A stretch of 64,000 nt of DNA from assembly GCA_903840415.1 (NCBI GenBank), contig CAIMFY010000074.1, positions 1 through 64,000 of the forward strand, read 5' to 3'. Of this stretch, positions 43,480 to 59,764 are shown piece by piece. The notes below the pieces were generated by a model. It saw only the letters and a program-made list of their open reading frames with translations, did no database searches and was not told where the DNA came from. This DNA comes from an uncultured Opitutia bacterium. Lineage in GTDB: Bacteria; Verrucomicrobiota; Verrucomicrobiia; Opitutales; Opitutaceae. The position numbers and the translations under genes are program-made. Numbering within the stretch: position 1 is the first letter of the stretch; every line of letters begins with the position of its first letter.

Positions 43480-43787
43480 TGAGAGAAGTGGAGTGAAAAA
43501 AGCAGGACGCGGCGATCAAGGCGAGCGTCAATCGCCGGCGCCAACCTCCATAGCGCCCCGACCGCAGTGATGGGACGGTGGCGTGGTTCTAGACAAGAAA
43601 TCCTTGGGAGAATTCGCACGAAAAACAGGCGATCAGGGAACGCGTGACGCACCGCTTCATCTTGCCTGTTCGGCACAAACCGCCGGCGGCTAAAGTCCGA
43701 TCCTTGAATTCTCACGCATCGGCATCGGCGGCATTTTTCACCCAAGTTTGACGCGTTTGCGCCGATGGCAGGGAGATATCCGAAATC
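43480..43787. other. 308-bp divergent intergenic region
   Basis: Lies between the leftward CheY-like gene and the rightward HDOD gene. It contains no protein-like ORF. Its right end holds the FliA-like promoter (43742-43768). Nothing that I can support was found in the rest, including a promoter for the CheY-like gene. Confidence 0.6.
43742..43768 (+). promoter_or_regulatory. FliA (sigma-28)-like promoter of HDOD gene A
   Basis: CCAAGTTT, 11 bases, GCCGATGG, against the consensus TAAAGTTT-N11-GCCGATAA (6 of 8 and 6 of 8 matches). The -10 box ends 19 bases before the ATG, with GGGAGA between them as the ribosome-binding site. Confidence 0.65.
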
Positions 43788-44705
43788 ATGCTCGCGGACT
43801 CATCGCTTTCGATTGGCCAGAAGCTCACGCCTGAGGACATCGTGCGTGAGGTGAGGCACCTGCCGTCGGCGCCGAAAGTGCTGCCTCGGTTGAAGCAACT
43901 CTTGAGCGACGGCAATTCCGCGATGCACGAAATCGTGGCACTCATTCGGCTCGATCCCGGCATCGCGGTGCGCGTGCTGCAGGCCTCGAACAGCGCCTAC
44001 TTCAGCAAGGGCGTGCGCTGCTTCACCGTCGATGAGGCGGTGAACCGTGTGGGCTATGATCAAGTTTACGAACTCGTCTCTTACGCCGTCGCCTCGCAGG
44101 TGCTGGTGCGACCGCTCGAAGTCTATGGCATCGAGGCGGACGAGCTCTGGAAGCTGTCGGTCGTGTGTGCGATCGCGAACGAGGAACTGGCCGGCCGCTC
44201 AGGCCAGGATCGCAACGCCGCCTACACAATCGGTCTGTTGCACGCCGTCGGAATGGTGGCGATCGACGAGTGGGCGTTGCGCAACGCCCGCACGCTGCGT
44301 CTGCAGAGCAAGGGTTTTCCGCGCGAGGCGTCGGAGGGCGAACGGGCGGCCCTCGGGTTTACGCAGGCGCAGGTCGGCGGCGCGCTGCTGATCGACTGGG
44401 AGTTTCCGCGGTCGATTTCCGAGCCGGTGCGTTGGCAATATTCTCCGCGCAGTTCGGCGAGTCAGATGAAGATGGCGATCACGTTGCACCTCGCGAAGTG
44501 GCTGCGCACGGTCGTGTGCGGGCCGGCGGAGCCACTGGCATTGCCGGACGAGGCGCATCTGCGGGCGTTGTCGCTCACGCCGGCTACTCTTTCGGCGATC
44601 GCGGCTGATGTGACGCAAAAGATTACCGCCGTCAGTTCGATGCTTGAGACGGCGCCGGAGGAATCGTCGCGCCTCCCACAGTTTCCCGCGAAAGAAGTCT
44701 GGTAG
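43788..44705 (+). CDS. HDOD-domain protein A
   Basis: A 305-residue cytoplasmic protein made of one HDOD domain (PF08668-like), a degenerate HD fold used as a signalling adaptor rather than a phosphohydrolase. Conserved stretches are LPSAPKVLPRLKQLLSDGNSAMHEIVALIRLDPGIAVRVLQASNSAYF (residues about 25-72), AVNRVGYDQVYELV and AAYTIGLLHAVGMVAI, where the HD metal ligands would lie. HDOD proteins are linked to chemotaxis, motility and two-component control in other bacteria. It has a FliA-like promoter directly upstream and a CheY-like receiver divergent to it. It belongs to the same subgroup as HDOD C and D at 55.6 and 56.5 kb. Confidence 0.88.
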   Translation: MLADSSLSIGQKLTPEDIVREVRHLPSAPKVLPRLKQLLSDGNSAMHEIVALIRLDPGIAVRVLQASNSAYFSKGVRCFTVDEAVNRVGYDQVYELVSYAVASQVLVRPLEVYGIEADELWKLSVVCAIANEELAGRSGQDRNAAYTIGLLHAVGMVAIDEWALRNARTLRLQSKGFPREASEGERAALGFTQAQVGGALLIDWEFPRSISEPVRWQYSPRSSASQMKMAITLHLAKWLRTVVCGPAEPLALPDEAHLRALSLTPATLSAIAADVTQKITAVSSMLETAPEESSRLPQFPAKEVW

Positions 44706-44804
44706 TTCTAGACTGGAGTTGCAGGTAAGGTGGACGGTGGAACGCGTGGGTTGGGGTGTGCTTCGCGCACCCGGGCCTCGATTCTCATTTCGATCGCACT
44801 TCAT

Positions 44805-44831
44805 TTAAGGCGTGAGGCGGTGGGCCGATGT
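44805..44831 (+). promoter_or_regulatory. Weak FliA-like promoter candidate before the protease
   Basis: TTAAGGCG, 11 bases, GCCGATGT (4 of 8 and 6 of 8 matches), 76 bases before the protease ATG. Noted because of the motif's recurrence nearby; the match is weak and could be chance. Confidence 0.22.
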
Positions 44832-44907
44832 TGATGATGCAGTCCCGAAACCAAGGAATCGCTCACCGCACCACCACGTCCGCACCACTTTTTCCACGGA
44901 AGGAACC

Positions 44908-46581
44908 ATGACCGCAATCTCCACTGCGCCATCGAGCCTCGCGCCTATCGTCAAGCGCGCCTTGGCGGCTGCCCCGCCCGTGGTCGCGCAAAGCGGCAGT
45001 CTGACTTTCGCGAAGTCGAATGCCATTGGGGTGGATTCGTCGGTCAAGCTCAGCGATGCCGGCATCAATAGCGCGACAACGAAATTTTCTCTTAGCCTCA
45101 ATCTTAAAACTGGCCAAAAATATTCGTTTTCCGCGTGGTTTGTCTCGGGCGGGCCGACGGTCACTTTAGTGGACAGTAATGGGAAGAAGACGGCGATCTC
45201 CATGAAAAATGGATTCACGATCGCCAAGAGTGGGACTTACCAATTGGTCCTCGAGCGGAGCACGCTCCTCGCCGGAGCGCTCCAGAACATTTCGCTCAAC
45301 GCCAAATCGCTCTTGCCCACGACGAGTGGCGACAAGCGGATTGATGCGCTCCTGATGGGGGGCACCGATGAATGGTGGCACGCCAGCGACACTGCGGTCA
45401 CGAAGAGCTCAAACCTGATCACGCCCACGGCCGCGGGGCTGGATGCCAACAGTTCCGCGACGGCGCTGACTTTCAGTTTCCTTTCCACCGCGCACGGCAG
45501 CGCCGCCGACCAGAATGGATTTCAGGAGATGACCGTTGATCAGAAAAACGCCGTGCGCCGCGCCTTCCAATACTACGGCAAGATCATCAACGTCACTTTC
45601 ACCGAAGCCGCCGGTGATGGCACCGGCGACATCAACTTCGGCGCGAACAATCAAAAAGGCGTCAGCGCGGGCTACGCCTACATTCCCAACACCAGTCCGA
45701 CTCCGGGAAAAACCTACCTCTATTTGGCGAACGATCAGTCGACCAATCTCGACTCGCAGCAGCTGAACGAAGGCGGGTATGGTTGGGAGACCATTCTCCA
45801 CGAGATCGGACACACGCTCGGGCTCAAGCACCCAGGCAACTACAACGCGGGCGGCGGTGGCACACCCGGTCCTTATCTTTCGGCGGCCGACGACAACCGC
45901 CAGAACACGATCATGTCCTACAAGAACAACTCTGTCTCCACCGGACTGAATCCGACGACGGCAATGGGTTTGGATGTGGCTGCACTGCAATATCTCTATG
46001 GCGCCAATACCAGCGGTTCCACCGCGACCAACGGAGCGTTTTCGTTCACTGCGGGAAATAACTATTTAGAATCTCTGTGGTCGACCAACGGCACCGACAC
46101 CATCGATCTCAGCGGGCTCACCAAGTCCAGCAACGTGAACCTCAACGCCGGGACATTTTCCAGCATCAACATCACCGCTCCGGCCAAGAGCACATTCTAC
46201 TCGGGCAACAACAATGTGTTTCTGGCCTACGGAGCCCAGGTCAACAACGTGACGCTCTCGTCGACCGACGGTGTCGCCGAGTCAGTCACCTTAAATAACG
46301 CCTTCAAGTCCGGGTCCTATGACAGCATTGCCTCGGTCAACGCCGCGGACGACAAGATCGTGCTCTCGAAATCCCTGTTTGGCAGTCTGACTGCCAAGAA
46401 CATCGAGTTCGGCGCATCGGCCACCAAATCCACCTCGAAGATTGTCGTGAACTCCACCACCGGCGAAATCTTTTATGACGCGGACGGCAGCGGAAAAGGA
46501 GCGGCAAAAAAGATCGCGCAATACACGGTCGCCCAAGGTCACGGCCAGCTATCCGCCAGTAATTTTTCGTTCGTGGCCTGA
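44908..46581 (+). CDS. Serralysin-like M10 metalloprotease, type I secreted
   Basis: A 557-residue secreted zinc protease (start ATG preceded by AGGA). There is no N-terminal signal peptide. An N-terminal domain of about 130 residues looks like a PPC-type beta-sandwich (SLNLKTGQKYSFSAWFVSGG). The catalytic motif is HEIGHTLGLKHPGNY with zinc ligands His298, His302 and His308, and the Met-turn is IMSYKNN. The C-terminus ends GEIFYDADGSGKGAAKKIAQ..... LSASNFSFVA, the typical terminal block of type I secretion substrates, but the GGxGxDxUx calcium repeats of classical serralysins are not visible. No secretion ABC/MFP genes are adjacent. Probably an extracellular protein-degrading enzyme. Confidence 0.88.
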   Translation: MTAISTAPSSLAPIVKRALAAAPPVVAQSGSLTFAKSNAIGVDSSVKLSDAGINSATTKFSLSLNLKTGQKYSFSAWFVSGGPTVTLVDSNGKKTAISMKNGFTIAKSGTYQLVLERSTLLAGALQNISLNAKSLLPTTSGDKRIDALLMGGTDEWWHASDTAVTKSSNLITPTAAGLDANSSATALTFSFLSTAHGSAADQNGFQEMTVDQKNAVRRAFQYYGKIINVTFTEAAGDGTGDINFGANNQKGVSAGYAYIPNTSPTPGKTYLYLANDQSTNLDSQQLNEGGYGWETILHEIGHTLGLKHPGNYNAGGGGTPGPYLSAADDNRQNTIMSYKNNSVSTGLNPTTAMGLDVAALQYLYGANTSGSTATNGAFSFTAGNNYLESLWSTNGTDTIDLSGLTKSSNVNLNAGTFSSINITAPAKSTFYSGNNNVFLAYGAQVNNVTLSSTDGVAESVTLNNAFKSGSYDSIASVNAADDKIVLSKSLFGSLTAKNIEFGASATKSTSKIVVNSTTGEIFYDADGSGKGAAKKIAQYTVAQGHGQLSASNFSFVA

Positions 46582-46662
46582 TGCCCGATTGGGCCTGCAA
46601 TAAAAGTCAGATCGGTTCCGTTGCGGTTTTCTCCCGCGATCGCCTTCCCACGGAGCAACGCC

Positions 46663-47040
46663 CTATTCGCAGCGGGCGTAGATTTTTTGCAGCATGGAAA
46701 GCGCGGGCGCGGGGCCGGTCGCCGGGGCGCGAGTGTCGCCGAGACTGCACCGGAGGAGGAGTTGTTCGTTTTCCTTGTCGAGCTGGAGAATTTGCAGGAT
46801 GCGTCCGCGCGTCTGCTCAAGTTGCGCGCGGGTTTCCGGATCGCGGGCGGAGGCGGCGGGGAGGGAGCGAAGGGCGTCCAGCGAGCTATCGAGTTTTTCG
46901 AGCAACGCGCGTTTGCGCTCGAGCAGCGCGCCGTCGGGGACGCGTTGGTGTTGGCGCAAGAATCGATTTTCGTCGAGGACGGCTTGGTGGATTTCGTCGC
47001 AGAGCGCCTGATGATTCTGCAGGGCGGGAAGCGGGCTCAT
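46663..47040 (-). CDS. Coiled-coil protein, possibly FlgN-like flagellar chaperone
   Basis: A 125-residue, almost wholly helical protein (MSPLPALQNHQALCDEIHQAV). The arrangement of acidic/leucine heptads with LLERKRALLEKLDSSLDALR resembles FlgN, the export chaperone for hook-filament junction proteins, but similarity is only at the level of pattern. It overlaps the TPR gene by four bases and is the third gene of a leftward three-gene unit. A FliA-like -10 box upstream of the unit supports, weakly, a flagellar role. Confidence 0.55.
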   Translation of the reverse strand: MSPLPALQNHQALCDEIHQAVLDENRFLRQHQRVPDGALLERKRALLEKLDSSLDALRSLPAASARDPETRAQLEQTRGRILQILQLDKENEQLLLRCSLGDTRAPATGPAPALSMLQKIYARCE

Positions 47041-48443
47041 GGGTTGGCGGCGGTCTTGGGGGCAGCGGTGGTGGGTGGTGGAGTGGCCGTGGTTTTGCCG
47101 GTCGAGTTTTCGAAGAAGGCAGTGACTTGGTGAGTCACCTGATCGTGCCACGACAGATTTTCCATCCGCCAGGCGGACATCTTGGAGAGCTCGGCGAGGT
47201 CGGGAGCGGGATTGGGTCCGGCGCTGTCGATGATCGTTTGGTAGGAGGTGCGGGCGCGGTCGGGGAGGCCGAGGCGCTCGGAGCAAAGTGCGAGCTGGTA
47301 AACGATCGGGAGGCGCCACACCGGTTCAGGCGAGAGTTCGACGAGGCTGGTGTAGATCGCCTGGGCATTGAGCATGTCGCCGCTTTCGAAGAAGTCGTTG
47401 GCGAGTTGGTTGCCGGTGCGCCGCTGCCAGTAGACCCAGCGTTTCGGGTCGGCCGAGACGCGAGATTTCTCGGCGTGGAGCAAATCGAGCACGGCGCGAA
47501 ACGCTTCCTGCGGGCGTTTCAGTTCGCGCAGGGAAACGGCGAGGATGTAGCGCGCCTCGGGAATGTTTTCGTCGTCGGGATATTGCTCAATGAAAGTCTT
47601 GAAGCTAGTGACGGAGTTTTCGAGTTCGCCCTGAAGGCGGAGCGAGTAGGCACACTTGAAGGAGGCCCGAGCGCGATCGGCGGGTGCAAGGTCGAGGAGA
47701 CGGAGGCGGAGGAAGAATTTCGCGGCCTCGGCGAAGTTTCCGGATTGAAAGTGGGTTTCGGCGATTTCGAACTGGGCGGTTTTTGCGAGCAACTGGTAGT
47801 GTTCGAATCCTTCGCTGGTGGGCAGTTTGAGGGTGGAGTTGATGACGTTGTAGAAGCGGGCGATCGCGAGTTTGTAGATGCCCATCGAGCGGAGCGTGCG
47901 GCCGAGATCGAGATAGGCGTCGGGCGTGCGCTCGTCGCCGGGGTAATCTTTGAGGTAGCGTTCGTAAATGGCGGTGGCCTTGGTGAGTGCGCCTTGGCGC
48001 CGGTGCATGTGGGCGAGACCGAGCAGCGCGGACTTTACGTCGGTGGGTGCGACGTGGCGGGCATTCAAGACCTGCCGGAAAGCGATTTCGGCGGAGTCGT
48101 AGTCGCCGCGTTCGGTGAGCGCGGCCCCGAGTTTGAGGAGGCCCTGGATTTCATCGGTGGCATGCGCCGGCTTGGCGGCGGCGGGCTCGGGGTGGGCTTC
48201 GGCGGGTTTCTCGGGTTCCGCGATCGCCGCGGGTTTGTCCGCGAGCAGGGCCGGATAATCGGCCGGAGATTTTTCGGGGGCCGCTGCCGTGTGGATCGAT
48301 GCCGGGGGGGCTTCATGGCTCTCGGCCTTCGGACCAGTCTTCAGTTCGACCTTGGGTTCGTCGCCTGCGCGCACGACCGCCATGATGGCCAGGGGAACGC
48401 AGGCCAGAGCGAGACGGAGCAGCAAACGGCGACGACGGATCAT
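47037..48443 (-). CDS. Exported tetratricopeptide-repeat protein
   Basis: A 468-residue protein with an N-terminal export/anchor segment (RRLLLRLALACVPLAIMAVVRA), a Pro/Ala/Lys-rich linker to about residue 95, then TPR-type helical repeats: GAALTERGDYDSAEIAFRQVL, GLAHMHRRQGALTKATAIYERYLKDYPGD, YLDLGRTLRSMGIYKLAIARF, AETHFQSGNFAEAAKFFLRL, and others up to about 430. The C-terminus is Thr/Pro/Ala-rich. The repeat spacing and KDYPGD/EQYPDDENIPEAR endings resemble BamD/YbgF-like envelope TPR proteins, so it likely scaffolds a periplasmic assembly. It sits between a Pro-rich exported protein and the FlgN-like gene, all overlapping or adjacent. Confidence 0.78.
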   Translation of the reverse strand: MIRRRRLLLRLALACVPLAIMAVVRAGDEPKVELKTGPKAESHEAPPASIHTAAAPEKSPADYPALLADKPAAIAEPEKPAEAHPEPAAAKPAHATDEIQGLLKLGAALTERGDYDSAEIAFRQVLNARHVAPTDVKSALLGLAHMHRRQGALTKATAIYERYLKDYPGDERTPDAYLDLGRTLRSMGIYKLAIARFYNVINSTLKLPTSEGFEHYQLLAKTAQFEIAETHFQSGNFAEAAKFFLRLRLLDLAPADRARASFKCAYSLRLQGELENSVTSFKTFIEQYPDDENIPEARYILAVSLRELKRPQEAFRAVLDLLHAEKSRVSADPKRWVYWQRRTGNQLANDFFESGDMLNAQAIYTSLVELSPEPVWRLPIVYQLALCSERLGLPDRARTSYQTIIDSAGPNPAPDLAELSKMSAWRMENLSWHDQVTHQVTAFFENSTGKTTATPPPTTAAPKTAANP

Positions 48444-49019
48444 TTACTTGGACTGGGTGGAAGTGGCGGTGCTAGGCGGCAGCGGAGCAGGTGCAAGTGC
48501 GTCACGGGGGACGGGCACGAGCACGTTCACGCCACCGGCTTGGCCGGGAATCTGAAAATACGGGAGAAAGTCTTCGGGACGGATTGTAGGACGAGCGTCA
48601 TCAGTAATGATTGAGGGAGGTGGCGCCTTGGCGGGCGTGACAGGTTCGGCATGGGCCGGAAATTCAGTGATCGCGGCCAGAGCCGCGGTGGCAGGAGCAA
48701 GTTTCGACTCGACGGGCGCCGGAGGCGCTTCGACGAGGGCAACGATCGGGATCGATCGTGCGCCGGCAGCCGGACGCACGGTCAGATCGGGCGGAGGCGG
48801 CGCATTTTGAAAGCGCAGCGGCGGCCCGCCGACGATGGCGAGGTAGGGCTGGAGCACAGGCTCCCCGTTGCGGAGATCCAGCGCCGCGCCCAAGTTGGGG
48901 TGCGACTCTGAGATTCCCGAAACGAACTTCGGCGCCAGAGTTGGCAGCAACAGGAGCGAGACGTAACGCAACGCCCTGCGCAGGCCAACCGCCTGGTGCG
49001 GTGGTTCGCGGTGATTCAT
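48444..49019 (-). CDS. Proline-rich hypothetical envelope protein
   Basis: A 191-residue protein I do not recognise. It starts at ATG (MNHREPPHQAVGLRRALRYVSLLLLPTLAP), where residues 14-30 form an export or anchor segment, followed by a long Pro/Ala-rich region (PPPPDLTVRPAAG, EAPPAPVESKLAPA). A better-ordered short motif, RPTIRPEDFLPYFQIPG, lies near the C-terminus. It abuts the TPR gene without a gap and is the first gene of the unit. A GTG 63 bp upstream (49082) is a less likely start because it would lie inside the FliA-like -10 box. Confidence 0.6.
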   Translation of the reverse strand: MNHREPPHQAVGLRRALRYVSLLLLPTLAPKFVSGISESHPNLGAALDLRNGEPVLQPYLAIVGGPPLRFQNAPPPPDLTVRPAAGARSIPIVALVEAPPAPVESKLAPATAALAAITEFPAHAEPVTPAKAPPPSIITDDARPTIRPEDFLPYFQIPGQAGGVNVLVPVPRDALAPAPLPPSTATSTQSK

Positions 49020-49072
49020 TTCGTGTGAGACATTCCATGTTAGTGGGATGGTCTTGATTTTGCCCACGCGTC

Positions 49073-49100
49073 CTATCGGCACGCCAGGCCGCGCACTGAA
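49073..49100 (-). promoter_or_regulatory. Candidate FliA-like promoter of the TPR/FlgN-like unit
   Basis: Good -10 box GCCGATAG (49073-49080 on the minus strand; 7 of 8) with a poor -35 match TTCAGTGC (4 of 8) at 12 bases. A second GCCGATAG lies at 49115-49122 inside a CCGAT-CT-ATCGG palindrome but has no -35 partner. Confidence 0.3.
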
Positions 49101-49149
49101 ATGAATTTACCGATCTATCGGCCGTGGGGTCCGCTCGCCTCCGGCAGGC

Positions 49150-51072
49150 TCAGGCGGGCACTTTAGCACCGAGGAGGCCGCGGAGTCGCCGGCCGATGTC
49201 GTCGAGCCGATAGGGTTTCTGGATAAAATCGCGCTGACCGATCGACTCGAGTTCCTTGCGGGCCTCGGACGTGATGTGCCCGCTAATCACGAGCACGTGC
49301 ATTTTCGGACGGACGGCGCGGATGACTCTCAGCACATCGGTGCCGCTGGCACCGGGTATGTTGAGATCCAGAAATACGGCGTCGAAGGGGCGCCCGGTGC
49401 CTTGAATGTGCTCGATGGCTTCAAGCCCCGACGCGGCCGTGGTCACCCGGTAACCTTTCCGCGCAAACGCCGCCGCGAGCAATTCGCGCAACGGATCCTC
49501 GTCTTCGACGATGAGCAAGTGTTCGGTGCCGCCGGGGAAGGAGTCGGACGCGTTGACGAGTGCGGCGGGGGTCGAGTTGGCCTCCGCCAGTGGCAGATAG
49601 GCGCTAAACGCGCTGCCGACCCCGAGCGTGCTTTCGACGTCGAGGCAGCCGTGGTGCGCGGTGACGATGCCGTAAACGACCGCGAGCCCGAGACCCGTGC
49701 CTTGGTTGACGGGTTTCGTCGTGAAAAACGGTTCGAAGATGCGGGCGCGGACTTCCGCACTCATGCCGGTGCCGGTGTCGGCGATCCGCAACTGCGCGTA
49801 GGTCTTGGCCGGATCGGCGCCGAGGTGCGCGAGCTGGGCGCCGGATTTCGTGCCCGTGGTGATCGTGATCGTGCCGCCGTGCGGCATGGCGTCGCGGGCG
49901 TTGACGCTCAGGTTGAGCACGATCTGCTGGATCTGGATTTGGTCGGCGAGGAGCGCCGGCAGATGCTCCTGGAGGTTGAGCTGGAAGGTGACGGTGCGCG
50001 GAAAAGTCTCCGCGAGCAGCGAGACGAGTTCGCGGGCGAGCTGGTTGAGATCGAGCGGGTGAAACTTGACGTCGGCCTTGCGGCTGAAGGTGAGGATTTG
50101 CTTCACGAGCCCGCTGGCGCGGATGGCGGCGCGATGGATTTCGCGGAGGCTTTTTTCGAGCAAGGCCGGCTCGGGGTTGGAGCCCTGGCAAAATTCCGCG
50201 TAGCCGTTGATGATCGCGAGGAGGTTGTTGAAATCGTGCGCGATGCCGCCGGCGAGGGTGCCGAGGCTTTCCATTTTCTGCACCTGACGGAGGTCCTGCT
50301 CGAGTTTCTTGCGCTCGGTGACATCCTCGCGCAGGCAGAGAAAATTAGTGATCTCGCCGGCGGGACTGCGGAGGCAGGAGACTTTCACGGACTCCCAGAC
50401 GGTCTGCGAATCGCCGCGGCGCGTGGTGAGCTCGCCGCGCCATTCCTCGCCGGCGCGAATCGTGGCCCAGAATTTCCGGTAGGAATCTTCATCGGGATGG
50501 CCGTCGCGCAGAATCTCGATGCGCTGATCGAGAATGTCCTCAAGCGTGTGGCCGGTGACGGCGATGAACTTGGAATTCACGTATTGCGCGCGGCCGTCGA
50601 GATCGGTGATGACGATCGAGACGGGGGACTGTTCAACGGCGCGGGAGAGGCGGTAGAACTGTTCCTCGGCGAGGCGCTGGCGCGTGATGTCGCGACCGAT
50701 GGCGCGGATGGCGGTGATCTCGCCGGTGGCGTCGCGCAGTGCGGTCTCCTCCCAGTCGAACCAGCGCACACCTTGCGGGGTGCGCCAGCGATGCTGACCG
50801 CTGGCGCGGTGCGGTGGCCGGGCGAGTTCGGCGTTGGAGGCGTGCACCGCTGGGAGATCGTCGGCGTGGACGAAATCGGTGAGGTGCGCTTCCGCCAGAG
50901 CGGCGGCGGCGAGGCCAAACTTGCGCGCGAAGGACACGTTGGCCGCGAGGATGCGGCCAGAGAGATCGCGGCAATAGGCGCAGTCGGCGCTATTTTCCCA
51001 CGCGCCGAGCCAGGACTCGACGACGGGAGGACGAGCCGTTTCAACCAGCGGTGCACTGAGTGCGACGGGCAT
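49150..51072 (-). CDS. Hybrid PAS-histidine kinase with C-terminal receiver
   Basis: A 640-residue soluble (no TM segment) hybrid kinase. Order: PAS1 (about 27-140, ending AIGRDITRQRLAEEQ), PAS2 (about 145-265, ending REDVTERKKLEQDL), HisKA with phospho-acceptor His in LGTLAGGIAHDFNNLLAIINGYAEF, HATPase (LNLSVNARDAMPHGG, DTGTGMSAE, GTGLGLAVVYGIVTAHHG), then a receiver (LLIVEDEDPLREL; phospho-acceptor Asp in AVFLDLNIPGASG; Lys in FIQKPY). The IAHDFNN box is typical of kinases feeding phosphorelays. It follows the chemoreceptor gene by 48 bp, and that gap holds one of the best FliA-like promoters in the window, so it can be expressed with the motility genes. Confidence 0.93.
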   Translation of the reverse strand: MPVALSAPLVETARPPVVESWLGAWENSADCAYCRDLSGRILAANVSFARKFGLAAAALAEAHLTDFVHADDLPAVHASNAELARPPHRASGQHRWRTPQGVRWFDWEETALRDATGEITAIRAIGRDITRQRLAEEQFYRLSRAVEQSPVSIVITDLDGRAQYVNSKFIAVTGHTLEDILDQRIEILRDGHPDEDSYRKFWATIRAGEEWRGELTTRRGDSQTVWESVKVSCLRSPAGEITNFLCLREDVTERKKLEQDLRQVQKMESLGTLAGGIAHDFNNLLAIINGYAEFCQGSNPEPALLEKSLREIHRAAIRASGLVKQILTFSRKADVKFHPLDLNQLARELVSLLAETFPRTVTFQLNLQEHLPALLADQIQIQQIVLNLSVNARDAMPHGGTITITTGTKSGAQLAHLGADPAKTYAQLRIADTGTGMSAEVRARIFEPFFTTKPVNQGTGLGLAVVYGIVTAHHGCLDVESTLGVGSAFSAYLPLAEANSTPAALVNASDSFPGGTEHLLIVEDEDPLRELLAAAFARKGYRVTTAASGLEAIEHIQGTGRPFDAVFLDLNIPGASGTDVLRVIRAVRPKMHVLVISGHITSEARKELESIGQRDFIQKPYRLDDIGRRLRGLLGAKVPA

Positions 51073-51081
51073 TTGGCGAAG

Positions 51082-51108
51082 CTATCGGCTCAGCGGCGCG
51101 CAACTTGA
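51082..51108 (-). promoter_or_regulatory. FliA-like promoter of the hybrid kinase
   Basis: On the minus strand TCAAGTTG, 11 bases, GCCGATAG (6 of 8 and 7 of 8 matches to TAAAGTTT-N11-GCCGATAA). The -10 box ends nine bases before the ATG, leaving room for almost no leader. Confidence 0.65.
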
Positions 51109-51120
51109 GGTGCGGCGCGA

Positions 51121-52614
51121 TTAAGCATGCACGAATTCGGAAGCGCGGGGCGATCGGATGGCGGCGCGGTCGGCGATTGGAGCGGGCAGGGGCGCAGCAT
51201 CGGTGGGCACGGTGGCGCTGGATGCGGTGAGGCCAAGCATCGTCTGCAATTCACCGAGCACGGCACGGAGCGTAGCGACTTCGCCCTGCATCTCGGCGGT
51301 GGCGGCGGCCGTTTCCTCGGCGCCGGCAGCGTTGGCTTGCGTGACCGTGTCGATTTGGCTGACGGCGGTGACGACTTGACCTAGCCCGGAGTTTTGCTCC
51401 GTAGAAGCGGTTGCGATCTCGGCGACGAGTTCGTCGACCTCGCGGGCGCGAGTGACAATCTGCTGGAGGCTCTGGCTGACTTTGGCGCTGAGCGCGGCGC
51501 CATGGGCGCCTTTGGCGATGGAGTCTTCGATTTTTTCGGCGGTCTCATGCGCGGCGACGGCGGAGCGTTGCGCGAGTCGGCGCACTTCTTCGGCGACGAC
51601 CGCGAAGCCGAGGCCGGCTTCGCCGGCGCGGGCAGCTTCGACGGCGGCGTTGAGCGCGAGGATGTTGCTTTGAAACGCTATCTCGTCGATCGTTTTGATG
51701 ATTTTGCCGATGTTGCTGCTGGCGATCTTGATGGCGTCCATCGCGACGGCCATGGCCTGCATGTCGGCGGCGCCGGTGTCTGCGGCGGCGCGGGTCTGGC
51801 CGGCGAGCGTCTTGGCGCGGGCGGCGCCCTCGGCGTTGCGGCTAGTCAACGAGGAAATTTCCTCGAGTGTGGCGCTCGTTTCCTCGAGCGAGGCCGCCTG
51901 ATTGCTCGCACCTTCGGAGACACTCTGGCTGGTGCGCGCGACGGTGGCGGAAAGTCCGGTCAGGGTCTCGGAGGCGCCGCCCAGCCGGGTGGCGATGTGG
52001 GTGAGCGGTCGCGAGATCGCGCGTTGGAAACGCCACCCAGCGAATGCAAATACGAGCAGCACGACGACGAGGCCGCCGCTCGCGCCGAGGAGGAGGCGCT
52101 GAGTAGCCGCATCCCTCGTGGCGATTTCGGCTTGCGCAGCGTGGTCGACGTCCTCGGCGGCCTGGCCGAGCGCGAGCACGACTTTTTCGAGCTGCGGATT
52201 ATACTGACCGACGTAAAGTTCGAGGGCGCCACCGTTGTTGGCGGTGAGGACTTGATCGACAACCGCCTGGCCCGTGCGGGCGAGCGCGGTGAACTGGGCC
52301 GCGAGGGCCGGGACGTCCGCCACGCCGGCGGCGGCCGCGGCGCGCGCGCTTTCGTAGCGTTTCAGGCCAGCCTCGATTTCGTCAGGATCCTTGAGACGCA
52401 GTAGCGCTTGGAGCGCCGTCTGCGCGCCGACGAGTCGCTGGAGCGCCTCGTGCGATCGACCATACTCGATGGCGACGCGCCGGGTGAGAGCGGTGTCACC
52501 CGCATGAGTGGAGCGCACGAAAAGCGCCGCGCCCGCGGCGAGAAGCGTGATGAGCGCCAGCGCCGCGGCGGTAAACAGCACGAGGCGTGCGCGAATGGTG
52601 GCGAATCGGCGCAT
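51121..52614 (-). CDS. Methyl-accepting chemotaxis protein
   Basis: A 497-residue transmembrane chemoreceptor, starting at ATG ([20 protein letters not shown]). TM1 is about 8-32, followed by a short helical periplasmic region of about 150 residues (four-helix-bundle-like) and TM2 (about 182-205). Only a trace of a HAMP domain ([14 protein letters not shown]) precedes the signalling domain with the highly conserved hairpin tip [37 protein letters not shown]. The C-terminus ([12 protein letters not shown]) lacks a CheR-tethering pentapeptide. The gene lies 17 bp after a gene for a separate periplasmic sensor-like protein and before the hybrid kinase. Confidence 0.93.
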
Positions 52615-52631
52615 GGGAATGGGTTGTCGTT

Positions 52632-53183
52632 TTACTGGGAAAGTTTCGTGATGCTGAGGCCGACGACGAGCGAGCCGATCGGTTTGCCGCCGTCGAGGAC
52701 GGGCACGGCGATCTGGACCTGCTGCTGGCCGGAGGCCTGGTTCACCTCGATCGGGCCCTGCCACGTCTTGCCGGTCAGGGGCACTTCGTGCTTGGGCATG
52801 CCTTTGTGGCACCAGTTGGTGGTCTTGGCGGTGAAGGCGACTTTGTAGCCGGCGGCGTCGGACAGAAACGGCAGCGTGACGAGCTCGTCCTTCTTCGCCT
52901 TGAGGAAGGCGCCCGCGGCATTCTTGGAGAAGGCGCGCACAAACGGATCGAGGACGGTGAGCGCGGCCCATTTCTCCTGCGTCATGGCGGCATAATCGGC
53001 CGGCAGCGCGGCATTTTGCGCGCGGACGGCGCCGACGATGACGGGGTCGGCGGCCCAGGCGACGATGTCGCTGGTCTTGGCGTCGATCTTGGCCTGGATG
53101 GCGGGCGTGATCGATTGCGCGCGAGCGGCGGTGGTAAATGCGGCGACGGCCGCGGCGAAGAGGAGGAGCAGACGGAGTTTCAT
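52632..53183 (-). CDS. Periplasmic Cache/PDC-like sensor protein
   Basis: A 183-residue exported protein: Sec signal ([22 protein letters not shown]) and then a domain resembling the soluble Cache-type sensor modules found inside chemoreceptors ([67 protein letters not shown]). There is no second TM segment, so it is free in the periplasm. It sits between an outer-membrane porin and the chemoreceptor on one strand, 53 bp after the former and 17 bp before the latter, which suggests that it presents a ligand to the receptor. Start chosen at the signal-peptide ATG; the longer frame is Arg/Pro-rich and not coding. Confidence 0.78.
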
Positions 53184-53236
53184 GGTGATGAGACGAGCGG
53201 AGCTTGTGGGGATATTTTGGAGACGCCGCAGCGCGA

Positions 53237-54442
53237 TCAGAACATCAACTGGAAGCGGCCGATGACACGGTCGCCGTGCGGCGTCGGCACGGGTTGGCTG
53301 CCGGAGAGGTAGTCGAGCGAGAGCTTGAGGTCGTCGCCCCGGAGGAGGTAGTTCACGCCGAGGGTCCACTCGTTGGTGGTGGTGTTGTCGGTGGCGGTGT
53401 TGCTGTCGTAGGTCTCGTAGCGGGCGATGCCCTGCCACTGTTTGGTGAAGTTGTAGGCGCCGAGGACGGACCAGCCGTTGGCGGCGGTGGCTTTGCCGAC
53501 GGTGGGATGTGAGTCGTTGCGGAGCAGTTCAGTCTGGAACTCGCTGGCGCCGAGGACGAGCTGGGCGTCGAGTCCGGTGCCGTAGCGGCGGCCGGTGAAC
53601 GTGCCCTTGTCCACCGTCGTGAAATAATTAGCGCCGGTCGTGAGCTTCAGCTTGGTGTCGCCGACTTTGGTGTCAGCGACGACGGCGGCGGTGCGGGCGA
53701 CCCAGAGATATTTTTGGTTGTCGTTGGTATTTACGTTGGTGCTGGTGCCGTTGTAGGCGCCGAGCGAGTAGCTGACGCGCTTGGCGGCGACCTCGCCGTA
53801 AACCATCGCGCCGATCTGGCGACCGAGGGTGAGCTTGTCGTTGGCCAGCGAGCGCTCGATGGAGTAGATCTTGGTGTCGGCCATGAGCTGCTCGTAACCG
53901 AAGGGCGTCTTGAACTGGCCGAGGCGCAGGCTCACGGCGGGGAGCTTCGTCCACGATACGTAAGCGTCAGTGAGCTGGCCGGACTGCCCGGTCTTGGCGG
54001 CGAGGGAATTGGCGCCGAAGTCGGATTCGATCTTGAACGACAGGTCTTCGACAAACGCGCCGGCGACGAACAGCCGCGCGCGCCGCACCAGAAACCGATC
54101 GCTGAGGCCGGCGAAGCGGGTGTCGGGCGACGGACCGCTCTCGAAGTTGGTCTGCACGAAGCCGCCGAGGGCGAGCTTGGTCTCGGCGCCGGCGACCTTG
54201 ACGACGCTGAGCGGCGTCTTGCCGTCGTAGCCGAACTGGTGCTCAAGGTCGGCAAACTCCTTTAACGTGGGCGCGAGTGCGTCGGCGCTGCCTGTCGCGC
54301 TGAGGCGGGCTTCGATTCGGGCGAGCTGCGCTTCGAGGCGCGCGAGCCGTTCTTCGGTTGCGGTCGTTTCGGCGGCGGCGGCAAAAAACGAAAAGCCGGG
54401 CGCAAAAAGCCCCAGCGCAATCAGGAGAGCGCGGAATTTCAT
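53237..54442 (-). CDS. Phosphate-selective porin O/P-like outer-membrane protein
   Basis: A 401-residue outer-membrane beta-barrel. It has a signal peptide ([24 protein letters not shown]), a short N-terminal coiled coil ([21 protein letters not shown]) that trimerises such porins, and a barrel beginning [14 protein letters not shown]. The OprP/O motif [26 protein letters not shown] is clear, as is [16 protein letters not shown], and the protein ends with aromatic Phe (RFQLMF), the Bam-recognition residue. Substrate is an anion such as phosphate in characterised members; here the context with a sensor and chemoreceptor suggests nutrient sensing. Confidence 0.88.
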
Positions 54443-54490
54443 TCCAGGTGGTGGATTGGTGTGAGGAGGCACGCTCCCGCCCTGTTCTAT

Positions 54491-54517
54491 TAATCGTCCG
54501 ACCGAAAAAAATCTTAA
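54491..54517 (-). promoter_or_regulatory. Possible FliA-like promoter of the porin/sensor/chemoreceptor unit
   Basis: On the minus strand TTAAGATT, 11 bases, GACGATTA (6 of 8 and 6 of 8 matches). It lies 48 bases before the porin ATG, unlike the 9-19 base spacing of the other sites, and the -10 core CCGAT is not intact, so this is less certain. Confidence 0.35.
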
Positions 54518-54548
54518 CGCGAAAGTCGCCCGCCAACGCCGTCGGTGC

Positions 54549-55481
54549 TTACAGCAAACCTTGCAGCATCGCCGGCAAGCGTTGGAGAGAATTGGCGATT
54601 GCGGCGCGCGCCAGCGCGGACTCCGGGCCGTCGGCGCCGTAGAGAATTTTCCAACCGTCGAGTTTGAGCCACGCATCCGCCTCGATCGGGGCGATGTGTT
54701 CAAATCCGCCAGTCACGCCACTGTGCCGGACGAGCAAATCGGCGACTTGGATCGCGGCGGCAAACAGCCGGTGCCGCGGCGCGCGATCGGGATCGTTGTG
54801 GTAGCGGACGGCGGTGATGATTTCCTCGGAGAGTTGGTGGCGCTCAAGATAACGCGCGCCGATCTGGCCGTGATCCCAGCCGATGAGTTCGCGTTCGAAC
54901 GCGCAGAATTCCGCCGGGTGAGCCGCGCGCCGCCCCATCAACACGCGCAATTCGTCGGGAAATGCATAAGCCATGACAACTTTGCCGACGTTGTGCAGCA
55001 GGCCGACGAGGTAATCGGTGTCGTCGTCGATCTGAAACGAAGTGGCGCCGAGGATTTCACGAGTGAGGATCGCGGTGCTGATGCTGTGGCTCCACAGTTC
55101 TTTCCACGGCAGGTTCACGGCGGTGGCCTTCTGCAACTGCTCGAGTTCCTCGAGGACCGGGGTGGCCATCGAGAGTTCACGGATTTGGCGCAGGCCCAGG
55201 AAAAAGACGGCCTCCTCGATGTTGTTCACACGAGTCGAGAGCCCGAAGTAAACGGAGTTGACCATCCGCAGCAGTCGGGCCGAGAGCGACGGATCGCGGC
55301 GGATGACCTCGGCGATTTGCGAGTTGAGGCTTTGGTCGGAGCGTACGAGCTCACCGAGCGCGCGGTTGATGCTTTGGAGCGACGCGAGTTTGGGGCACGC
55401 GTCGATGCGCCGGAGGATTTCCTTTTCGGCATACGGAGTGGGCGCGATCGCCGTCGCCGGTGCAGTGGAGTCGTTGAACAT
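54549..55481 (-). CDS. HDOD-domain protein B
   Basis: A 310-residue HDOD protein, starting at the ATG giving MFNDSTAPATAIAP, preceded by AGGAG four bases upstream; ATG 55496 is an in-frame alternative that would lie within the promoter box. HDOD core: LASLQSINRALGELVRSDQSLNSQIAEVIRRDPSLSARLLRMVNSVYFGL, NNIEEAVFFLGLRQIRELSM and DYLVGLLHNVGKVVMAY, where HNVGK stands where canonical HD domains have HDIGK. LIGWDHGQIGARYLERHQL follows. It is of a different subgroup from HDOD A, C and D. It is divergent from HDOD C across 115 bp with back-to-back FliA-like promoters. Confidence 0.88.
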   Translation of the reverse strand: MFNDSTAPATAIAPTPYAEKEILRRIDACPKLASLQSINRALGELVRSDQSLNSQIAEVIRRDPSLSARLLRMVNSVYFGLSTRVNNIEEAVFFLGLRQIRELSMATPVLEELEQLQKATAVNLPWKELWSHSISTAILTREILGATSFQIDDDTDYLVGLLHNVGKVVMAYAFPDELRVLMGRRAAHPAEFCAFERELIGWDHGQIGARYLERHQLSEEIITAVRYHNDPDRAPRHRLFAAAIQVADLLVRHSGVTGGFEHIAPIEADAWLKLDGWKILYGADGPESALARAAIANSLQRLPAMLQGLL

Positions 55482-55492
55482 GTGGCTCCTAT

Positions 55493-55519
55493 TCATCGGC
55501 ACGCGGGCGTGGCGCTTGA
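55493..55519 (-). promoter_or_regulatory. FliA-like promoter of HDOD gene B
   Basis: On the minus strand TCAAGCGC, 11 bases, GCCGATGA (4 of 8 and 7 of 8). The -10 box ends 11 bases before the ATG at 55481. Confidence 0.55.
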
Positions 55520-55557
55520 GCGCGACAGGCCGATTTCGTTGGCGCGAGGGATGTGGC

Positions 55558-55584
55558 TCAACTACGGCGCGGTGGTGCCGATAA
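55558..55584 (+). promoter_or_regulatory. FliA-like promoter of HDOD gene C
   Basis: TCAACTAC, 11 bases, GCCGATAA: a perfect -10 box (8 of 8) with a partial -35 (4 of 8). The -10 box ends 12 bases before the ATG, so the transcript would be nearly leaderless. Confidence 0.6.
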
Positions 55585-55596
55585 CCAAAATGTAAC

Positions 55597-56451
55597 ATGC
55601 CTTTTGCCTCCGCCATTTCTTGCGCCCGCGCCGTGCAAGTCGCCGAAAATTTGCCGTCCGCTCCGCGCGTCCTCGCCGAGTTGCAGGCGCTCCTGCGAGA
55701 TGCGAACAACGGGCTCGACGAAATCACTGAGCTGCTGCGCCGCGATGCGGGCCTGACCGCGCGGATTATCCGGATTTCGAATGGCATTGTTTACAACAAG
55801 GGCGAGCCGGTCGCCTCGCTGGAGGAGGCGTTGGGTCGCGTGGGCTTTGAGGAAGTCTACCGTCTCACCGGCCTCGCGTCGGTTACGGGGCTGGTGAATT
55901 TCCAGCTGCGTTACTACGGTGTGGCGGCGCAGCGGTTGCGGGAAAATTCCGTCTTCGTCGCCGTGCTGATGGAGGAGCTCGCGCAATTCGTGGCGGCCGA
56001 TGCGCGGGTGAGCTACACGGCGGGGCTGCTCCGATCCGCCGGCAAGATCGCGCTCGATCTGGCGGCGCAGCGCGACCTGCGTTTCGTGCGGCCGCCGGCG
56101 CTGTCGCCGGCCGGACTGTTGGCGTGGGAACAGGAATTTTTTGGCCCAACGAATCCCGAGGTCGGCGCCGCGCTGCTGCGCGCCTGGCGCATGCCGCTTG
56201 AAGTCTACATCCCGATTCGCGATCACTACCTGCAGAGTTTGGCGGTCGATCCGATCCCGATGGCGAAGCAGCTTTACCTTGCAGCGGGAGCGGCCGACGA
56301 AGCGGGGTGGGGCCTCGCCGGCGAAGCGGGCTACTGGGTCGTGCACCGCGATAAAGTGCTCCAGGAATTGAAGCTGGAGCCCGAGATCTTCGGACGGATT
56401 GTCGCCCGGGCCCGCGGGAAATTCGAGAAAACCATCTCGATCCTGGCGTGA
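55597..56451 (+). CDS. HDOD-domain protein C
   Basis: A 284-residue HDOD adaptor protein: VAENLPSAPRVLAELQALLRDANNGLDEITELLRRDAGLTARIIRISNGIVYNKG, SLEEALGRVGFEEVYRLTGLASV and RVSYTAGLLRSAGKIALDL. The HD metal ligands are absent, as in other HDOD proteins. It is a tandem paralogue of HDOD D, which follows 68 bp downstream with its own FliA-like promoter, and is related to HDOD A. No RBS is visible in the 12-base space between the -10 box and the ATG. Confidence 0.88.
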   Translation: MPFASAISCARAVQVAENLPSAPRVLAELQALLRDANNGLDEITELLRRDAGLTARIIRISNGIVYNKGEPVASLEEALGRVGFEEVYRLTGLASVTGLVNFQLRYYGVAAQRLRENSVFVAVLMEELAQFVAADARVSYTAGLLRSAGKIALDLAAQRDLRFVRPPALSPAGLLAWEQEFFGPTNPEVGAALLRAWRMPLEVYIPIRDHYLQSLAVDPIPMAKQLYLAAGAADEAGWGLAGEAGYWVVHRDKVLQELKLEPEIFGRIVARARGKFEKTISILA

Positions 56452-56480
56452 TATTTTCGACGCGGCCGCGCGTTCTTCGC

Positions 56481-56508
56481 TAAATTTATGATCGGTTCGC
56501 ACCGATAG
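56481..56508 (+). promoter_or_regulatory. FliA-like promoter of HDOD gene D
   Basis: TAAATTTA, 12 bases, ACCGATAG (6 of 8 and 6 of 8 matches, one base longer spacer than consensus). The -10 box ends 11 bases before the ATG, as for genes B and C. Confidence 0.5.
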
Positions 56509-56519
56509 CTTTTCCAGCC

Positions 56520-57365
56520 ATGCTTGTTGCCACCTCTTTTCCGCGCGAAAGCCTGCTACACGTCGTCAAGACCCTGCCAGCCGCGCCGCAAATCCTCGCC
56601 CGGCTCGGCCGGATGCTGCTCGATCTCAACGCCGATTTGTCCGATGTCACCGCGCTCCTGCGCTGCGATGCCGCACTCACGACTCGCATCATGCGCATCG
56701 CCAACAGCGCGATCTACAACGTCGGCACGCCCTACGGTTCACTCGAGCAGGCGCTCGCCCGTGTGGGCTTCAGCGAAGTTTACCGGCTCACCGGTTTCGC
56801 GGCCACCGCTCAGCTCAGCGACGAAAAACTTCCGCTCTACGGGATCGACGGCGCGAAGCTCCGCGAGAATGCCCTGCTCACGGCGCTCGTGATGGAGGCG
56901 CTGGCCCCGATCGCAGGCGTCGACCAACGGGTGGCTTACACCGCGGGCCTGCTCCGCTCGACCGGCAAGATCGCGCTCAACCGTCTCACCCGTGATCCGG
57001 CTTACAGCGGCAGTTATCCGGCGGAGGCCAAACTCCCGCTCGCTGAGTGGGAAACCGATTTTTGCGGGCTCAATAATTGCGAAGCCGCCGCGTTCATCCT
57101 GAACGAGTGGCGCTTCCCACCTTCGACGCTCAACGCGATCCAGCAGCACTACACGCCAGTCGCGTCATCGAGCCAGTTCTCGTTTCTGCTCAACCTCGCC
57201 GCAGGAGCCGCGGAGCGCTGCGGCCACGGTCTGCCGGGGGAACTCTGTTACTGGGAGCCCACGCCAGAGAAATTTGCCGCCGCCAAGCTCCCCGAAGCGG
57301 ACTTGGATGAGGCGATGCGCGCCGCGCTGGAAAGATTCGGCCCGGTGCGCGCGGCGCTGAGCTAG
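56520..57365 (+). CDS. HDOD-domain protein D
   Basis: A 281-residue HDOD protein and tandem copy of HDOD C: VVKTLPAAPQILARLGRMLLDLNADLSDVTALLRCDAALTTRIMRIANSAIYNVG, SLEQALARVGFSEVYRLTGFAAT, DQRVAYTAGLLRSTGKIALNRL. The shared blocks (RVGF.EVYRLTG.A; LRENA..TA.VMEAL; YTAGLLRS.GKIAL) show recent duplication. The C-terminal third, involved in partner choice in such proteins, diverges. It is followed 54 bp later by the first glycosyltransferase gene. Confidence 0.88.
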   Translation: MLVATSFPRESLLHVVKTLPAAPQILARLGRMLLDLNADLSDVTALLRCDAALTTRIMRIANSAIYNVGTPYGSLEQALARVGFSEVYRLTGFAATAQLSDEKLPLYGIDGAKLRENALLTALVMEALAPIAGVDQRVAYTAGLLRSTGKIALNRLTRDPAYSGSYPAEAKLPLAEWETDFCGLNNCEAAAFILNEWRFPPSTLNAIQQHYTPVASSSQFSFLLNLAAGAAERCGHGLPGELCYWEPTPEKFAAAKLPEADLDEAMRAALERFGPVRAALS

Positions 57366-58693: not shown

Positions 58694-59764
58694 ATGTCGC
58701 CGAAAACATTATTCTACGGGGGACAACCGGGCGGCACTCACGGTTGGGGCGTCTGCAACCGGCACCTGATCGACGAACTGGCGAAGCTCACACCGCTCAC
58801 GCCTTTGTCGGAAGCCCATCCACTGTGGCAATCACCAGCGCTACCAGGCGATTTCTTTACGCCGCTACTTAACCATGATTTTACGCCTTCTGCGCCGGCG
58901 CGCGGAGAGCGCAATTTCGCCTACACTTTTTTCGAAGCGGAGCCCAACCAACGATCGGTCGAGAACGCGCGGCGATATGATGTCGTTTTTGCCGGCTCCA
59001 CCTGGTGCGTCGATTGCATGAATGACCATGGCATCCCCAACGGTGTCGTCCTGGTTCAGGGTGTGGATGCTCGGGTTTTTTGCCCGCAGCCTCCGGCGCG
59101 GACGGATGGCCGGTTCCGCATCTTCTCCGGCGGTAAATTCGAGGTGCGCAAAGGCCAGGATTTGGTGCTGCGCGCGTTTAAGATCTTACATCAGAAATAT
59201 CCGGACATGGTTTTGGTGACCGCTTGGTTCAACATTTGGCCTAAGACGATGGACCAGATGGCGTGTATGCCGGACTTTCGGTTCGAACTGATCAAGGGTT
59301 CCTGGGTGGAACAGATGGAGCACGTTTACCAACTCAACGGCATCGACCCGAGCCGCGTCATCACCCTGCCTTTGACCCCGCAGGCGCAGATGGCGAAAAT
59401 CTACCGCGAGAGCGACGTCGGCCTGTTTCCCAACCGTTGTGAGGGCGGGACGAACCTGATGTTGATGGAATTCATGGCGTGCGGCCGGCCCGCGATCGTG
59501 AGCGACGGAACCGGACACCGCGACGTGGTGAACGAAAAGAATTCACTGCTGCTCCGGCGGCTGCCCCAGCTGAATATCATCGGACCCAACAAAGAATTAA
59601 CGGCGCGTTGGGTGAATCCCACCGTGGATGAAATCATCGCCCAAGTCGAATTTGCCTACCATAACCGGACGGCGGCGGCGGCGTTGGGCGACCAAGCCGC
59701 GGCGGACATGAAACTGTGGACGTGGGAGCGGGCGGCCAGAACCATTCTCACACACAAAAGTTGA
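58694..59764 (+). CDS. GT4-family glycosyltransferase B
   Basis: A 356-residue group 1 glycosyltransferase: start MSPKTLFYGGQPGGTHGWGVCNRHLIDELAK, GVDARVFCPQPPA, RIFSGGKFEVRKGQDLVLRAFKIL and the donor motif LFPNRCEGGTNLMLMEFMACGRPAIVSDGTGHRDVV (E-x7-E). It is in one operon with glycosyltransferase A (eight bases apart). Its last codons overlap by 17 bases the convergent SPINDLY-like gene, leaving no room for an independent terminator. Confidence 0.88.
   Translation: MSPKTLFYGGQPGGTHGWGVCNRHLIDELAKLTPLTPLSEAHPLWQSPALPGDFFTPLLNHDFTPSAPARGERNFAYTFFEAEPNQRSVENARRYDVVFAGSTWCVDCMNDHGIPNGVVLVQGVDARVFCPQPPARTDGRFRIFSGGKFEVRKGQDLVLRAFKILHQKYPDMVLVTAWFNIWPKTMDQMACMPDFRFELIKGSWVEQMEHVYQLNGIDPSRVITLPLTPQAQMAKIYRESDVGLFPNRCEGGTNLMLMEFMACGRPAIVSDGTGHRDVVNEKNSLLLRRLPQLNIIGPNKELTARWVNPTVDEIIAQVEFAYHNRTAAAALGDQAAADMKLWTWERAARTILTHKS

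Follow-up and report, generated by a model that had tools for sequence, protein, structure and literature searches.

What controls the signalling genes gathered in the stretch of DNA analysed here (the window), the first 64,000 nucleotides (bases 1-64000) of contig CAIMFY010000074.1 (C74) in the 4.91-Mb, 124-contig assembly of an uncultured Opitutaceae bacterium? Four genes of the window encode HDOD-domain proteins, all four over the Pfam HDOD cut-off, and a fifth encodes a soluble hybrid histidine kinase; each is preceded, shortly before its ATG, by a pair of octamers resembling the promoters read by the flagellar sigma factor FliA (sigma-28). An original prediction made from the sequence had named these five genes, which we confirm, and had proposed that they form a FliA regulon with almost leaderless mRNAs. 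Our analysis indicates that the five sites are very probably FliA promoters and represent one arm of the late flagellar regulon, a signalling set included.

Upon re-reading the sequence, all five octamer pairs were found at the coordinates and on the strands first proposed (Table 1). The matches of their -10 octamers to GCCGATAA and their distances to the ATG were likewise right as sets (8, 7, 7, 6 and 6 of 8 positions; 12, 9, 11, 19 and 11 bases) but had not been listed in the order of the coordinates, along which the -10 matches read 6, 7, 7, 8 and 6 of 8 and the distances are those of Table 1. In four of the five sites, the -35 octamer resembles TCAAGTTT more than the enteric TAAAGTTT. We scored sites on a 13-point scale that adds the matches to T[AC]AAG (5 points) and to GCCGATAA (8 points) and subtracts one point when the spacer is not of 11 bases; the pattern searched, T[AC]AAG-N14-GCCGATAA, corresponds to an octamer pair with an 11-base spacer. 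The remaining genes at the 80 loci collected around one of the HDOD genes (see below) proved unsuitable as background: 64 of 307 scored at least 10 and 39 of 307 at least 11, because several are motility genes themselves. We therefore took other stretches of the same genome, namely eight arbitrarily picked ones of 20 kb with 134 called genes, examining 110 bases upstream of each. Sixteen of these 134 genes scored at least 9, one at least 10 and none at least 11; four of the five sites are singly above this background. The fifth, at 56481, is weak, lies within it when taken alone and rests on its orthologues. Between 43 and 82 kb of C74, 11 of 32 genes scored at least 10 and five at least 12. 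Among the 499 genes of all the stretches examined (150 bases upstream), 36 scored at least 10 and six at least 12, and five of these six are located between 49 and 78 kb of C74.

The strongest evidence comes from the orthologues. One of the four HDOD genes, which we call HDODa (the others being HDOD 1 to 3), has matches in 36 of the 57 genomes of our comparison set, its own included, and its upstream region was collected at 80 loci from named records, the nearest of which by protein belong to Opitutaceae/Opitutae genomes. A site scoring at least 10 was present in 59 of these 80 upstream regions and one scoring at least 11 in 35, as against 2.2% and 0.4% of dinucleotide shuffles. The regions fall into 65 mutually unalignable groups, 48 of which have a median score of at least 10. 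A count of 4-mer dyads made without any consensus recovered the same motif: TCAA-N17-CGAT came out on top, in 29 of the 80 upstream regions, and the best dyad of any kind in ten mononucleotide shuffles reached at most 8. Sites scoring at least 10 also precede 23 of 74 kinase orthologues and 8 of 15 orthologues of HDOD 3. For HDOD 1, three of the four orthologues of at least 63% identity have sites scoring 11-12 and the fourth, in the sister genome, scores 9 (3 of 11 have sites when distant HDOD matches are included), and the sole orthologue found for HDOD 2, also in the sister genome, scores 11. The motif is thus conserved before HDOD and kinase orthologues while the surrounding DNA is not, which supports the sigma-28 reading.

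Does this genome encode a sigma factor able to recognize such sites? A profile search detected two of its proteins over the FliA_WhiG cut-off. One is encoded at C104:101326-102123, inside a flagellar cluster that spans about 81 to 113 kb of contig C104 (most gene names there were read from protein starts), and also exceeds the cut-off of the NCBIfam FliA model (217.4 versus 201 bits), so that the fliA gene presupposed by the original prediction is indeed present. Late flagellar genes occur on C74 as well, with two flagellin genes and fliD at 71.4-75.4 kb, starting 7.4 kb past the end of the window, and fliS at 76.6 kb. We used fliD as a positive control, scanning in the relatives 300 bases upstream, a wider region than the 110 bases used for orthologues and background: 19 of 26 loci have a site scoring at least 10, located 10-78 bases before the start and in 17 of the 19 at 15-60 bases, with the locus of the present genome (L190) and L182, where the best hit of the scan falls within fliD or right at its beginning, counted as misses. 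The fliD site of C74 scores 10 at a gap of 37 bases. Beyond the window, a small gene ahead of fliS, a CheX-type gene and gene 77530 also have sites upstream, all three of which recur in the sister genome together with that of fliD. One flagellin gene has a weaker pair upstream (TAAAGATT-N12-TCCGATTG), its counterpart in G022 has a site scoring 11 at 101 bases, and in relatives some cheW and chemoreceptor genes also carry sites. The flagellar setting of fliA, the occurrence of the motif before fliD in relatives and its conservation upstream of the HDOD and kinase genes all support the sigma-28 reading as originally put forward.

The second protein over the FliA_WhiG cut-off is encoded at C38:15256-16050, beside response-regulator genes. 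It raises the alternative of sigma-28-type promoters served by a different sigma factor of the same specificity, such as this one, which passes FliA_WhiG (224.1 versus 189.6 bits); FliA and WhiG have a common promoter specificity (PMC8325347). The persistence of sites in G017 and G018, where FliA was not found, fits this alternative too. We consider it unlikely, because 31 of the 34 genomes with any FliA_WhiG match have a single one (two proteins pass the cut-off in just three of 57 genomes, G000, G014 and G045) and many of those 31 nevertheless conserve the sites, because the same motif precedes fliD, and because the C38 protein narrowly misses the NCBIfam FliA model (199.3 versus 201 bits). 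The FliA of the C104 flagellar cluster would then be the factor that transcribes the window sites, and its regulon would also take in fliD, probably one flagellin gene, the small gene before fliS, the CheX-type gene and others past the window.

Several results weigh against this reading. The original prediction had looked for confirmation to a genome-wide search, with hits before motility genes, and this was not obtained for the bare pattern: allowing at most one mismatch, it occurs 23 times in the genome and its reversed control 28 times, and exact matches to T[AC]AAG-N14-GCCGATA over the 57 genomes sum to 77 versus 72 for the control, no excess in either case. Nor did it hold for the chemoreceptor genes, as all ten examined in this genome (of 11 MCP matches, the eleventh being a broken frame) are devoid of a site scoring at least 10. 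The same applies to flaA, flaB, flgL, the third flagellin gene, a motA-like gene and fliA itself, which all score below 10, and no site was found within 110 bases upstream in any of eight flagellin orthologues, with one farther flagellin site in G022. Among the signalling genes, 21 of the 80 HDODa upstream regions score below 10 and 51 of the 74 kinase orthologues have no site scoring at least 10, many of them lying close behind HDODa. The distribution of HDODa across genomes speaks in favour of the reading: the gene occurs in 23 of the 34 genomes that have FliA and in 5 of the 23 that do not (matches down to ~40% identity included), with a Fisher p of 0.0007 that is not corrected for shared descent. 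Five genomes with an HDODa match have no FliA over the cut-off. Two of them, G002 and G030, hold flagellin and may therefore suffer from assembly gaps, and in a third, G019, the HDODa match is only 41% identical. The other two, G017 and G018, have no match to FliA, FlhA, FliD or flagellin, the four families searched, and their HDODa sites still score 11 and 12. As for the genome-wide counts, the bare pattern carries too little information, so that its count neither defines membership of the regulon nor decides alone, and in the absence of enrichment the proof had to rest on conservation. Chance, by which GCCGAT-like words common in GC-rich DNA would have been picked because they happened to lie near ATGs, agrees with those counts and with the position of site 56481 within the background. 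It is nevertheless very improbable, given that one gene of the 134 in the background reaches 10, that the HDODa upstream regions exceed their shuffles so widely and that the dyad count needed no consensus; for HDODa, the kinase and the small gene starting with MNHREPP (Table 1), conservation already refutes it.

HDODa and the hybrid kinase constitute a conserved gene pair. At 63 of the 80 loci the kinase gene lies downstream of HDODa in the same orientation, and at 59 of them no more than 400 bases away; ten loci have room yet no kinase and seven offer too little sequence. Among 20 longer loci, 17 have the two genes next to each other, one (that of the sister genome) has them apart and two lack the kinase. 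In the genome studied here and likewise in its sister, HDODa and the kinase are kept apart by porin, cache-like and chemoreceptor genes, and the kinase has its own site. The Opitutaceae arm of the regulon would transcribe the genes of an HDOD protein and of a soluble hybrid histidine kinase, usually encoded side by side, with the kinase of the present genome, set apart from HDODa, probably read from its own promoter and three further HDOD genes carrying putative FliA promoters as well. Eight other HDOD genes of this genome were examined, two of which score 10 and none higher.

The distances between these sites and the start codons deserve separate consideration. In kinase orthologues, 22 of 23 sites are found 6-15 bases ahead of the start codon, with 16 of these at 8-10 bases, and in HDOD 3 orthologues all eight sites lie at 5-17 bases. 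HDODa sites are at about 10 bases in the closest relatives and at 40-67 bases in 43 of the 66 orthologues with a site. In the aer promoter of Escherichia coli, the mapped start point is 6 bp downstream of the octamer, and CGA occupies positions -11 to -9 (PMC2859248). Under this rule the leader equals the gap to the ATG minus 5, which predicts leaders of ~14 bases for HDOD 1, 4 for the kinase, 6 for HDODa, 7 for HDOD 2 and 6 for HDOD 3, and of about 1-10 bases for the kinase orthologues with their own site. The originally proposed near absence of leaders would accordingly hold for four of the five genes, whose -10 boxes are so near the ATG that only about 4-7 bases would be left, and not for the site at 43742. 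Alternatively, the promoters may be real and the leaders normal in vivo through other start points or co-transcription, in which case the nearly leaderless state would be wrong. This is quite possible, if somewhat doubtful: the start points are extrapolated from a single mapped E. coli promoter (PMC2859248), the short gap is not general among HDODa orthologues and, in most relatives, the kinase is close enough behind HDODa to be read from the HDODa promoter, but the narrow range of distances in kinase and HDOD 3 orthologues is kept in upstream regions that otherwise differ, which points to selection on the position itself.

Late flagellar expression is coupled to the export apparatus by the FlgM-export checkpoint. 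If FliA reads the window sites, the signalling set would be made only in cells with a working flagellar export apparatus and would then act on swimming, an effect suggested by the influence of the HDOD proteins GsmR, Cj0248 and SadB on motility elsewhere. No FlgM could be proven. The product of gene 76271 was considered as a FlgM candidate and rejected, the likeness being by eye only and with no match in Pfam or NCBIfam. Combining these elements with the predicted leaders, we tentatively propose, as a plausible scenario that falls somewhat short of being probable, a flagellum-gated module in which transcription by FliA would provide a soluble hybrid kinase and a set of HDOD adaptors only once export works, the promoters being so placed that the leaders are of 4-7 bases, with leaderless-type translation setting the level of these proteins apart from that of structural genes with ordinary leaders, such as fliD.

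How does this compare with known systems? As in the enteric class 3 FliA regulon, there is a fliA gene, octamers are spaced by 11-12 bases and the motif precedes fliD and some other late genes. Unlike in that regulon, the -35 is mostly TCAAG instead of TAAAG, an HDOD-hybrid-kinase pair is among the targets and most chemoreceptor and flagellin genes have no good site. Chlamydia, from a phylum related to that of this bacterium, has sigma-28 promoters with the same spacing and a degenerate -10 box as well. Their consensus, with which the sites studied here agree, is TAAAGWWY-N11/12-RYCGAWRN and their targets include pgk, dnaK and trxB (PMC8762339), in contrast with the flagellar and HDOD set found here. 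In Rubrobacter, WhiG, a sigma factor of the FliA family, has signalling targets including genes for diguanylate cyclases and phosphodiesterases and controls type IV pilus genes (PMC8325347); the same promoter consensus reaches signalling genes in both cases, but the cognate sigma factor would here be encoded in the flagellar cluster. HDOD proteins have been tied to motility in the cases of GsmR, Cj0248, SadB and PSPTO_4229 (PMC11004494, PMC6543031, PMC11813219), which share the domain with the proteins studied here but none of which is described, in the parts of these accounts that deal with them, as a sigma-28 target with a hybrid kinase partner. In a limited literature search, no publication was found that assigns an HDOD-kinase pair to a FliA-type regulon or describes sigma-28 promoters whose very short leaders are conserved. 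Regulons of the FliA type that reach signalling genes are already known, and the HDOD-kinase pair would be a new member of one, with unusually short predicted leaders.

The proteins behind the sites and their neighbours (Table 1) add further observations. In an alignment of the kinase with 17 of 18 orthologues from the 20 longer loci (L159 left out), the phospho-acceptor residues His-279 and Asp-569 are invariant in all 18 sequences. In that of HDODa with 19 of 20 orthologues from the fetched loci (L161 left out), His-132, His-163, Asp-203, His-204, His-215, His-228 and Asp-248 are invariant in all 20 sequences; HN takes the place of the usual HD pair, and Pfam HD is also matched (E=3.3e-7). 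The HDODa profile matched the solved Cj0248 structure 1vqr (E=6.5e-15), ranked behind closer matches such as 3m1t and 3hc1. The HDOD 2 orthologue of the sister genome G001 (locus L148, 12825-13659) is split over two frames, either a broken gene or an assembly error.

Two sites were added to the original five. One precedes the MNHREPP gene, whose start was chosen from the MNHREPP-like beginning kept in relatives and whose product has no Pfam or NCBIfam match. Nineteen of 24 orthologues of this gene score at least 10, all 19 at 50-60 bases, with a -35 that is mostly TCAG (12 of 19). Its leader (49020-49072, minus strand) contains a block, GGGCAnAATCAGGACCATCC...ATGGA, kept in most of 25 aligned sequences, in which the reading frame is not kept; this block is possibly a regulator site or an RNA element, and an Rfam search of the window returned two tRNAs only, with nothing for the block. 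The second added site, before the porin gene, is weak: three of four orthologues score 11, that of the sister genome does not, and a chance origin is possible. A TPR/GT41-type glycosyltransferase gene lies at 59748-61721 (minus strand) in the window. Since 20 of 62 matching TPR-glycosyltransferase genes near HDODa in relatives carry a sigma-28-type site, flagellin glycosylation may belong to the regulon. Past the window, the unclassified gene C74:77530-77940 (minus strand, 136 residues), divergent from an NtrC-type regulator gene, carries the highest-scoring sigma-28-type site in this region (TCAAGCCA-N11-GCCGATAA, score 13), and its four orthologues all score at least 10. An exact match at C69:73496 was considered as a homologue of one in G018 (C86:40650) and rejected, since the 1152-residue product downstream of the former is unmatched in the G018 stretch.

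Table 1. Candidate promoters and genes of the window (positions on C74; scores on the 13-point scale).
Feature	Coordinates	Strand	Description
Sigma-28-type promoter of HDOD 1	43742-43768	+	CCAAGTTT-N11-GCCGATGG; -10 at 43761-43768; 19 bases to ATG; score 10
Sigma-28-type promoter of kinase	51082-51108	-	TCAAGTTG-N11-GCCGATAG; -10 at 51082-51089; 9 bases to ATG; score 12
Sigma-28-type promoter of HDODa	55493-55519	-	TCAAGCGC-N11-GCCGATGA; -10 at 55493-55500; 11 bases to ATG; score 12
Sigma-28-type promoter of HDOD 2	55558-55584	+	TCAACTAC-N11-GCCGATAA; -10 at 55577-55584; 12 bases to ATG; score 12
Sigma-28-type promoter of HDOD 3	56481-56508	+	TAAATTTA-N12-ACCGATAG; -10 at 56501-56508; 11 bases to ATG; score 9
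Added site before MNHREPP gene	49073-49099	-	TCAGTGCG-N11-GCCGATAG; 53 bases before MNHREPP start
Weak added site before porin gene	54491-54517	-	TTAAGATT-N11-GACGATTA; 48 bases to ATG; score 10
HDOD 1	43788-44705	+	305 residues; Pfam HDOD E=5e-40
HDOD 2	55597-56451	+	284 residues; Pfam HDOD E=7.7e-32
HDOD 3	56520-57365	+	281 residues; Pfam HDOD E=1.9e-33
HDODa	54549-55481	-	310 residues; conserved kinase partner; Pfam HDOD E=6.5e-46
Soluble hybrid histidine kinase	49150-51072	-	640 residues; PAS-PAS-HisKA-HATPase-receiver domains (HATPase_c)
Chemoreceptor (MCP) gene between HDODa and kinase	51121-52614	-	MCPsignal E=1.1e-38; best site scores 8, no good site
Porin (Porin_O_P)	53237-54442	-	401 residues; domain match
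Small unclassified gene, starts MNHREPP	48444-49019	-	191 residues; first gene of a run
TPR gene	47037-48443	-	Same run as MNHREPP gene
125-residue gene	46663-47040	-	Same run as MNHREPP gene

HDOD proteins are widespread. The mechanistic role of the HDOD domain is not established (PMC6543031). The placement of a conserved HDOD-kinase pair in the flagellar regulon of this little-studied family of soil and freshwater bacteria gives the domain a developmental setting and points to a kinase as its candidate partner. Provided that the short leaders exist, the promoters of the kinase would provide a natural series for leaderless-type translation tied to one sigma factor and, should the flagellum-gated module be true, these bacteria would possess a sigma-28 arm where selection acts on the start-site position itself.

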